64,000 nt of DNA, taken from contig QCLK01000002.1 of the NCBI GenBank assembly GCA_003214615.1, positions 62,001-126,000 on the forward strand, written 5' to 3'. Below the pieces are notes generated by a model, which had not been told where the DNA came from, did no database searches, and saw only the letters and a list, made by a program, of their open reading frames with translations. The DNA is from Pelagibacteraceae bacterium AG-414-E02 (GTDB lineage Bacteria > Pseudomonadota > Alphaproteobacteria > Pelagibacterales > Pelagibacteraceae). Numbering within the stretch: position 1 is the stretch's first letter; the number at the start of each line of letters is the position of its first letter. Made by a program: the position numbers and the translations under genes. Positions 30,515-33,989 of the stretch are shown here, piece by piece.

Positions 30515-31801
30515 ATGAGTGAAAATAAATATATTCCAAAAACAAAATTAGCCAAATGGTTTGACAGTCGTTTACCTTTATTGTCCCTTTCTCATCATTT
30601 AAAGGAATATCCTACACCAAAAAATTTAAATTATTGGTGGACATTCGGTGGAATATTAACCTTTTGTTTGATCACTCAGATTATCACTGGAGTAATATTA
30701 GGTATGCACTATGTGGCCCATACGGATCATGCATTTGAAAGTATCGAGCACATCATGCGAGATGTTAATTATGGTTGGTTGCTTAGATATGTACATGCAA
30801 ATGGTGCTTCAATGTTTTTTTTAGCAGTTTACATTCATATTTTTAGAGGTTTGTTCTATGGTTCATATAAAGCTCCAAGAGAGGTTATTTGGATAATCGG
30901 AGTAATTATTTATTTACTAATGATGGCTACAGCTTTTATGGGTTATGTTTTGCCTTGGGGGCAAATGAGTTTTTGGGGAGCAACTGTAATAACAAATCTA
31001 TTTAGCGCAATACCTTTAGTTGGAGAAAGTATTACAACATGGCTTTGGGGAGGGTATGCTGTCGACAATCCAACTTTGACCAGGTTTTATGCTTTACATT
31101 ATTTACTTCCATTTTTAATTTTTGGTTTAATTATACTTCATATTTGGGCTCTACACGTTCCAGGAAATAACAACCCAACAGGAATTGATGTTAAGAAAAA
31201 TAGTAACGAAACTATGCCATTTCATCCATATATGGTCATGAAAGATATAACTGCTTTATTAGTTTTTATAATTATATTTTTTTGGTTTGTATTTTTTGCA
31301 CCAAATGCTTTAGGGCATCCAGATAATTACATTGAAGCTAATCCATTAGTAACTCCAACACACATTGTTCCCGAGTGGTACCTATTACCTTTTTATGCAA
31401 TTTTAAGAGCTATACCTAGCAAACTTGGAGGAGTTATCTTTATGTTTGCTGCAATTTTTGTATTAGTTTTGTTACCATGGCTTGATACATCAAAAGTTAG
31501 ATCTTCAACATTTAGACCACTATATAGAAAGTTTTTCTGGGTTTTGGTGGTTACAGTTATTTTATTAGGATACCTAGGAGCAAAACCTCCTGAGGGGATT
31601 TATTTAGTTTTGTCGAGAATAGCAACAGCGTATTACTTTATTCATTTTTTAATATTACTACCCGTGCTTGGGCGTTATGAAAAAACAGATCCATTACCAA
31701 TGAGCATTTCCGATCCAGTTTTAGATAAACCTGGTTTAATTGATAAGTTTAAAAAAGCAGCAGGACAATATGAAGGTGATAATGTTGGGTCTTTTAAATA
31801 G
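30515..31801 (+). CDS. petB: Cytochrome b of the bc1 complex
   Basis: 428 residues, eight helices. Heme ligands are the H-x13-H pairs in the second and fourth helices ([22 protein letters not shown] and [24 protein letters not shown]). The Qo site motif is [15 protein letters not shown]. It oxidises ubiquinol and reduces quinone in the Q cycle. It starts 7 nt after petA. Its 3' end overlaps the start of cytochrome c1 by 20 bp. Confidence 0.96.
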
Positions 31802-32657
31802 AATAATTTTAACAATTTTAATTTCAATAATTACTACTTTGTCCTTTGCTGATGATCAACATTCGCACGGAGCAAATACAAATTATTTAAATACAGATTG
31901 GAGTTTTAAAGGAATTTTTGGAACATTTGACCGCGCTTCACTTCAAAGAGGTTATCAAGTCTACCAAGAAGTTTGTGCCGGTTGCCACTCTGTACAACAT
32001 TTAAGTTACAGAAATTTATCTGAAAAGGGTGGCCCTGAGTTTTCCGTTGAAGAAGCCAAGGCTATTGCATCTCAATTTGAAGTAGAAGATGGACCTAATA
32101 GTGATGGGGAAATGTTTATGAGACCAGCGAGATTATCAGATAAATTTGTAAAACCTTTTCCCAACGTTGAAGCTGCAACAGCAGCAAATGGTGGGGCATA
32201 TCCTCCAGATATGTCTGTTTTAACAAAAGCAAGGGCAGGTGGAGCAGATTATATTTACTCTCTTCTTTTGGGATACGAAGATCCCCCAACAGGTTTTGAG
32301 CTTGATGATGGCGTTTATTACAATAAATATATGGCAGGAAACAAAATTAAAATGTCAGCACCACTTATGGATGGTATTGTAGAATATGCTGATGGCACTG
32401 AAGCAACAACAGCACAAATGTCAAAAGATGTAACCACATTTTTAGTTTGGGCTGCTGAACCACATCTAGAAGCCCAGCACCGCATGGGTTTTACAGCTAT
32501 TATATATTTAATTATACTTTTAACTTTAGTTTATATGAGTAAACAAAAAGTATGGTCACGATTTGGTTCAAAGAAAGAATTAGAAGAAGAAACTTTTGAT
32601 AAAGTTGAAAAAGCTGTAACAGAATACGAAGGGGAAGATCCCAAAACTTTTAAATAA
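31782..32657 (+). CDS. petC: Cytochrome c1
   Basis: 291 residues from the ATG at 31782, chosen because GAAGG lies just upstream and because it gives a normal signal peptide ([20 protein letters not shown]). The track start at 31740 is within petB. Heme c site CAGCH with [16 protein letters not shown] before it; the axial Met is in [10 protein letters not shown]. The C-terminal anchor is [20 protein letters not shown]. It takes electrons from the Rieske protein. Ends the classical pet operon; two tiny ORFs follow. Confidence 0.95.
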
Positions 32658-32755
32658 TTTAAATTCATAAGGGTGCGACAAAAAATTTCAATTTCAATTT
32701 TTTTTTAAGATTTTTTTCATATTTTAAACACAATCTAATACTAAATAAACGTTAA

Positions 32756-32830
32756 ATGCGTCTCAAAATATTTTACACTTTTATTTTATTATATTGGACT
32801 GTTTTAGTTTTTGGTCCATTTATTCAGTAA
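32756..32830 (+). CDS. Tiny hydrophobic ORF 1 after petC (24 residues, hypothetical)
   Basis: ATG to TAA, 24 codons. The peptide starts MRLKIFYTF and ends VFGPFIQ: a basic N-terminus followed by one helix-length hydrophobic stretch with Trp, typical of tiny membrane subunits. No SD is visible. The second tiny ORF begins 3 bp after its stop. I recognise no family. The T-rich sequence favours Phe/Leu by chance, so this remains a hypothesis. Confidence 0.35.
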   Translation: MRLKIFYTFILLYWTVLVFGPFIQ

Positions 32831-32833
32831 TTT

Positions 32834-32911
32834 ATGACTAAAATACTATTTTTGTCTTCCTGGTCTCTTGTTATAGCGTTTTTTGCTGCAGCAACAATTT
32901 TGTCTTTTTAA
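32834..32911 (+). CDS. Tiny hydrophobic ORF 2 after petC (25 residues, hypothetical)
   Basis: ATG to TAA, 25 codons. It starts MTKILFLSSWSLVIAFF and then has AAATILSF: one membrane helix with a short polar N-terminus. The Ala-rich stretch uses GCT, GCA, GCA and ACA codons, not a simple T run. Its stop lies 4 bp from the ychF stop on the other strand, the same tight convergent spacing as other real gene pairs here. Function unknown; a small bc1 subunit is an inference from position. Confidence 0.4.
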   Translation: MTKILFLSSWSLVIAFFAAATILSF

Positions 32912-32915
32912 AAAC

Positions 32916-33989
32916 TTAACTTCCAACTCTGAAGTACATTACATCTCCGTCATTAACCAAGTAATCTTTTCCTTCAAGCCGTAACTTTCCGGCATTTTTA
33001 CATTCATTAAAACCTTTGTACTTTATAAAGTCTTCGTGTGTTACTGTTTCAGCTCTAATAAATTTTTTTTTAAAATCAGTGTGAATCACGCCAGCAGCAT
33101 CAACCGCTTTTGAGTTTTTTTCAATAGTCCAAGCTCTACTTTCTTCAGGACCAGAGGTGAAAAAAGTGCTAAGACCCAGAGTTTCATAACCAGTTTTAAT
33201 TAAATTATCTAAACCAGTACTTTTTATTCCTGATTCAAGCATAAAATCTTTACGATCTTTTGTTTGAAGGTTCATAATTTGGTCTTCAATATCAGCGCAT
33301 ACAATAATTATATTTTCCTCAGAAAACTTTTTTTTACAAGCATCCGAATATTTATTTCCATTGGGCAAGCTTTTTTCGTCAACATTACAAACAATTATTT
33401 TTGGTTTAAGAGATAAAAGACCTGATTTTTTTATTATATCTTTACTATAATTTTTCTTTAATTCGTCTGGTCTTTTTCCGCTGTTAATTAATTTTTGGCA
33501 TTCTTCTAAAAATTTTAATTCGTCTTTTTCTAATTTTTTTTTATTACTTTTTTCCAGTCTTTTTTGAAGAGATTCTAAATCAGATAACAGGATTTCAGTT
33601 TCAATAATTTCAAGATCCCTTATTGGATCTACATCTTTATTTACATTTTGTATTTTTTCAGAGTCAAAACAGCGTGTAAGATGAATAATAGTATCTACTT
33701 GTCTAACATGAGAAAGAAATTTGTTTCCCAATCCCTCTCCCTTAGAAGCCCCCTTAACTAGGCCAGCAATATCTACAAAAGTAATGGCTGCATTAATTGT
33801 TTTAGTAGATTTAGATATCACAGATATTTTATCTAATCTTTCATCAGGTACAGAAACTATCCCGACATTTGGATCAATGGTACAAAAAGGAAAATTTTCT
33901 GCTTGAGCTTTTTTGGATGTGCTCAGGGCATTAAATAAAGTTGACTTACCAACGTTGGGCAATCCAACTATTCCGCACTTAAAACCCAT
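32916..33989 (-). CDS. ychF: YchF/OLA1-type ATPase
   Basis: 357 residues of the Obg-related family. P-loop [11 protein letters not shown], switch [21 protein letters not shown], and the altered G4 motif NVDE in place of NKxD, which gives ATP rather than GTP preference. The C-terminal TGS domain ends [21 protein letters not shown]. It associates with ribosomes and stress responses. It follows pth by 2 bp, the common pth-ychF pair. Confidence 0.95.

Follow-up and report, generated by a model that had tools for sequence, protein, structure and literature searches.

Respiratory complexes are known to include small single-helix subunits, such as CydX, the small subunit of cytochrome bd oxidase, and the CcoQ/CcoM-type subunits of cbb3 oxidase. 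Tiny single-helix accessory peptides also act as transporter regulators (KdpF, MgtS and AcrZ), and the gene for a regulator of this type need not adjoin that of its partner. The high-light-inducible proteins of T4-like cyanophages, for their part, are tiny single-helix proteins common to marine hosts and phages.

Here we describe a pair of very short genes from SAR11, a group that is among the most abundant of ocean bacteria and whose genomes have little spare DNA. The pair was found in a stretch of 64,000 nucleotides, referred to below as the window. Like CydX, its products are very short, hydrophobic and built around one helix; unlike CydX, there are two of them, they are encoded beside many different genes, and no CydA was found in the genus. 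They share a single helix with CcoQ and CcoM, and a GCGRC box upstream of the pair recalls half of a RegA site, but there is no cbb3 operon context and FixO/CcoO was not found in the genus either. The likeness to KdpF, MgtS and AcrZ lies in the tiny single-helix accessory format, whereas two peptides occurring together set the pair apart, and no sequence relation to those regulators was found. From the high-light-inducible proteins it differs in its host group; no chlorophyll-binding motif was seen by eye, and no sequence relation was apparent.

Two small genes in the gap after petC

The pair occupies the 258-bp gap (positions 32658-32915 of the window) between petC, the cytochrome c1 gene (31740..32657, + strand; Pfam PF02167, E = 2.5e-96; start codon uncertain), and the convergent gene for the YchF GTPase (32916..33989, - strand; Pfam PF06071 and PF01926), both of which are neighbors outside the unit. 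The initial annotation had pointed out that this gap is outsized for a convergent pair. This is the case, although outside this pair a simple gene caller recognizes six convergent pairs in the window where eight had been counted; their gaps run from -4 to +7 bp. Re-reading the sequence also bore out the two tandem ORFs: ORF1 (32756..32830, + strand; 24 codons, MRLKIFYTFILLYWTVLVFGPFIQ) and ORF2 (32834..32911, + strand; 25 codons, MTKILFLSSWSLVIAFFAAATILSF) are separated by 3 bp, and the ORF2 stop lies 4 bp from the ychF stop. Their consensus sequences are MRFKLFYTFIFLYWTILVxGPFIx and MTKILFxSSWSLVxVFFTIATILS, respectively. In ORF1 a basic N-terminus is followed by a hydrophobic stretch, and both ORFs are genuine genes for predicted single-helix membrane peptides with a basic start, as had been proposed. 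No terminator was found in the petC-ychF gap, and its fold is unremarkable (z = -1.05).

A profile search detected ORF1 at E < 1e-6 in 18 genomes, of which 15 belong to genus g1 and three to genus g6, and the ORF2 profile detected the same 18 at E < 1e-7. Both frames are open in all of them, with zero in-frame stops, no frameshifts and every ATG retained. Parsimony changes at codon positions 1/2/3 number 60/30/78 for ORF1 and 66/28/89 for ORF2 in these genomes, such that changes pile up at third positions. The ORF1 alignment requires 85 amino-acid changes against a mean of 113 in column shuffles, and that of ORF2 requires 86 against 119, a deficit of about 25-30% that none of 500 shuffles reached. 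The shuffled alignments also contain about 24 stops each on average, while the real ones contain none. Pairwise placement tests concur overall; in the closest pair (the window and G012), ORF1 alone is without constraint. The bias toward synonymous change and the intact frames that had been named as checks are therefore both present, and they indicate purifying selection. ORF1 and ORF2 are real, previously unannotated protein-coding genes.

Neither they nor the g3 protein described below have a match in Pfam, NCBIfam, PHROGs or PADLOC, and no significant match for ORF1 or ORF2 was found in the PDB. Literature searches, which covered small membrane proteins of SAR11, leaderless mRNAs and small proteins lacking annotation, likewise turned up nothing on the unit.

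Positions and promoter of the unit

A DNA search in the genus showed that the cassette is present in many relatives. It lies between petC and ychF in seven of 21 genus genomes (G000, G012, G015, G004, G010, G005 and G003), where the gap measures 257-358 bp, and is missing from this site in the other 14, where the gap is 1-8 bp. The petC-site carriers are scattered on a petC and ychF tree, some branches of which are weakly supported. About eight other sites, mutually unrelated, were found. The unit has an EamA transporter gene on one side and a cupredoxin gene on the other in G007, follows an EamA gene in G001, is flanked in G013 and G014 by a glycine riboswitch and another EamA-like gene, lies by folD in G019 and G020, and is near tRNA genes in G017, G022 and the g6 genomes; ORF2 of G016 is near tmRNA. 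The order of the two ORFs is reversed in G001, G019 and G020, they are divergent in G017, and they are on separate contigs in G016. All 18 carriers hold both ORF1 and ORF2, and because the two co-occur even when unlinked, we attribute a joint function to them. Divergent ORF1-like units were detected in G021 and G022 via the promoter or a weak profile match, and six genomes, all incomplete (G002, G006, G008, G009, G011 and G018), gave no convincing ORF1 or ORF2 profile match. The distribution shows that the gap contains an independent micro-operon of two genes that landed between petC and ychF by chance.

In four genomes a further small peptide, which we call ORF0 (for example MNTYNTFFGFYALSNTPMWLDYEKNNLINKH and MFPYTNEENDWINKK), is encoded 5' of ORF2 (L042 2473-2568, - strand; L150 1402-1497; L120 3226-3273; L123 3443-3490, - strand). 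The ORF0 pattern EN-x-W-INK has four matches in the genus, one of them within another gene.

The core promoter element of the window, TTTAAACACAATC (32723..32735, + strand), has its RAACA motif starting 30 bp 5' of the ORF1 ATG. It is followed by the -10-like hexamer CTAAAT (32741..32746, + strand) in a CAATC-N5-CTANNT spacing common to units of different genomes, and CTANNT occurs at the same spacing in many units. Across 22 aligned upstream regions, RAACA almost always starts 28-31 bp 5' of the first ATG, whether ORF0, ORF1 or ORF2 comes first, the exceptions being ORF1 of G016, whose start is ambiguous, and ORF0 of G017, which has a looser copy. Given the spacing of RAACA and the -10-like hexamer, the transcript start is predicted at or beside the ATG, giving a leaderless mRNA; the missing Shine-Dalgarno (SD) sequence that had already been noticed agrees with this prediction. 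The window element is the second half of an 11-bp direct repeat, RACANNNTTTNAACA, which the upstream half of the core forms in many units; the repeat is degenerate in the petC-site group, and in the window it is the first half that has degenerated. Of 55 distinct RACANNNTTTNAACA matches in the sequence examined, 43 precede an ORF1-like frame and one is the G016 unit; one more is in G090 (L116), and the remaining ten, all in g3 loci, have an identical sequence and apparently represent a single coding site. The conserved spacing supports the view that an own, nearly unit-specific promoter would transcribe the unit as a leaderless mRNA. On these observations, very small genes can travel through streamlined genomes in self-contained packages that include a promoter.

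Farther upstream is a box of the GCGRCA type, TGCGACAAAAA (32674..32684, + strand), the only non-coding copy of three genome-wide. Such a box is present in 19 of the 22 aligned regions, 51-83 bp 5' of the first ATG and at 71-83 bp in all but one. Its distances to the core (22, 31, 42-43 and 50-52 bp) are compatible with helical phasing, which is suggestive, the distinct classes numbering only about four. A wider regulon was considered for both elements, with whole-genome motif counts obtained as pattern searches, and was rejected: other genome matches to the core are mostly inside genes, and copies of TGCGRCAAAAA elsewhere are coding. In two g3 genomes (L206 and L207) a similar box where another gene begins is not accompanied by a unit and was disregarded. 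A sigma-32 promoter was also rejected from a comparison in 18 genus genomes, the unit having TTTRAA-N12-CTANNT without an SD sequence and groES having TTGAAA-N15-YTATAT with the SD sequence TTAGGAG. The groES 5' region (L210-L227) carries this promoter-like sequence and SD in most genomes and could serve as a SAR11 sigma-32 reference.

Relatives in genus g3 and in T4-like phages

Most g3 genomes match a 39-47-aa protein (MKTISIFILLIYWSIMIFAPVMSKD...) in the profile search, although many of these matches depend on one g3 sequence in the profile and fall to chance level without it. At the loci inspected, an SDR or other dehydrogenase gene converges on the gene, which also adjoins a DUF3047-type gene. 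Changes per codon position in its first 23 codons are 24/5/91. The g3 protein aligns with ORF1 at an hhalign probability of 93.8% over 16 columns, and its gene lies behind the same RACANNNTTTNAACA repeat, placed about one helical turn farther from the ATG than in g1. Homology of g1 ORF1 and the g3 protein is probable on these grounds, but not proven, and g3 probably holds a version of the unit with a single gene. A basic start, a mid-helix YW, GP or AP, and the RACANNNTTTNAACA repeat, which together define the ORF1 family, are found in g1, g6 and most g3 units. That a family without any family model is kept by most g3 genomes is notable in the streamlined SAR11, and provided that the cultured Pelagibacter strains belong to g3, as we assume, its function is directly testable.

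A viral contig with genes for a gp59-type helicase loader and a gp32-type single-stranded DNA-binding protein encodes MRVISIFILLIYWSLMISLPYTAK..., a relative of the g3 protein (53% identity over 30 residues to the g3 query, E = 3e-7). The gene for this relative is just upstream of gp59 on T4-like contigs, and on a second viral contig an 89% identical copy directly follows a tiny YW peptide, MKILQSHLKNNSLKTGVFLTLAIYWFFILIGTFISFN. In most other relatives of the phage this place is taken by different genes, many of which encode other tiny membrane proteins, some starting MFPYNPCENKW. The host promoter repeat was not found beside the phage pair, ORF1 has no confirmed relative in the viral contigs searched, and among annotated phages there was no match for ORF1 or the g3 protein and no convincing one for the phage peptide. 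A shared phage member suggests that the peptides touch something important to host and phage alike. It is conceivable, if somewhat doubtful, that single-helix membrane proteins of 24-47 aa form a superfamily, as yet undescribed, in much of the Pelagibacteraceae and in T4-like phages, whose bacterial genes move together with a nearly specific promoter repeat and whose products serve a shared membrane target that host and phage must control. T4-like viral contigs (L234-L313) also encode many different tiny single-helix proteins (MIPYNICENKW..., MIVKDKLINHYNKNETLYLGYFY...) in the region upstream of gp59.

Possible roles of the pair and further small ORFs

The reading we favor, with confidence a little below even, is that the unit is independent and that its two single-helix peptides jointly serve as accessories to a membrane complex or transporter resident in the cell, with probable relatives in g3 and relatives in phages. 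Judging from sequence, each product would be a single-pass inner-membrane peptide with a cytoplasmic N-terminus and mid-helix W/Y and S/T residues. After leaderless translation, the ORF1 and ORF2 peptides may form a hetero-oligomer. Docked on a membrane complex or transporter that is present throughout these SAR11 lineages, the pair would then act as small subunits with an accessory or regulatory role. Because such peptides would need no particular neighbor, the unit could work wherever it lands. They are not essential to a universal complex, since several genus genomes, all incomplete, gave no convincing match.

Carriage by phages and frequent relocation fit a role in host-phage conflict about as well as an accessory role. 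The main rival, which we consider unlikely but well short of negligible, is accordingly that these are conflict genes traded between SAR11 and T4-like phages, with peptides altering adsorption, injection or lysis in the manner of superinfection exclusion. The gp59-linked relative of the g3 protein with its adjacent tiny YW ORF speaks for this, as do the changing sites of the unit and its patchiness inside one genus. In G056 (g6) a phage-type exonuclease gene (L119 817-1500, - strand; phrog_298, E = 3.5e-52), whose product is 36% identical to the exonuclease beside the phage pair, also lies near tRNA genes and about 2 kb from the unit, and host ORF0 starts (MFPYNNEENDW in G020, MFPYTNEENDW in G019) resemble by eye the MFPYNPCENKW of proteins encoded at the same phage site. 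However, most g3 genomes keep their gene, at one fixed place in all those inspected and under strong purifying selection, a constancy that conflict genes do not usually show; no PADLOC match was obtained, and a confirmed relative of ORF1 is missing from the viral contigs and annotated phages.

That the peptides are unrecognized subunits of bc1, or of another respiratory complex, encoded after petABC is improbable. The initial annotation had proposed this from their position in the window, citing the existence of small single-helix respiratory subunits, but the position is not conserved: the unit is missing there in 14 of 21 genomes and is beside unrelated genes elsewhere. Nor is it kept with petABC or wherever bc1 is, as several petC-carrying genomes, which are incomplete, have no convincing match. 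Having a promoter of its own, the unit does not form the tail end of the petABC operon. The analogy to CydX likewise fails as a statement of membership, for searches of the genus turned up no gene for a bd or cbb3 oxidase: CydA (PF01654) was detected in 0 of 23 genus genomes and in 10 of 14 controls, and FixO/CcoO (PF02433) in 0 of 23 and in two of 14. In RegA/PrrA sites such as GCGACCGTTCGTCGC, which is listed with ccoN (PMC5359404), the left half does resemble the GCGRC motif, and SAR11 is reported to have two sigma factors and four two-component systems, including RegB/RegA (PMC13198564). However, of the RegA/PrrA repeat GCGNC-N5-GNCGC only one GCGRC half is kept in the units, the second being absent. 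ORF1 and ORF2, although new genes, probably do not encode parts of the bc1 complex.

We give very little weight to the idea that they are type I toxin-like hydrophobic peptides that depolarize the membrane under the control of an unseen RNA. Their small size, hydrophobicity and patchy distribution would suit it, but two different peptides are conserved as a pair, together even when unlinked, the g3 relative is widely present, and a structured RNA was rejected, RNAalifold predicting no pair in 10 aligned units and no Rfam match coming near the gathering score. Finally, chance ORFs in T-rich non-coding DNA, a caveat raised at the outset and in keeping with the composition, the missing SD and the lack of a known family, or else a structured RNA, can practically be dismissed given the zero stops, invariant ATGs and codon-position signal in 18 genomes and the lack of conserved base pairs.

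Some units adjoin further small ORFs besides ORF0. A third tiny membrane ORF (MIFQKNRQYRFDYFYLLIFALLVVLSVLS and variants) lies 3' of ORF2 in G010, G005 and G003 (L036, L037 and L038), and a 51-aa ORF in the G021 unit (L182 1688-1843) is loosely like it by eye. In G016 a 40-aa probable membrane protein, MSDEHKMTAQDKLVLTITLAAIFFGVFGLGLVGLIFNLSS, with no family above cut-off, is encoded 3' of ORF2 (L150 1610-1732), and similar G+C-rich stretches flank the pair.
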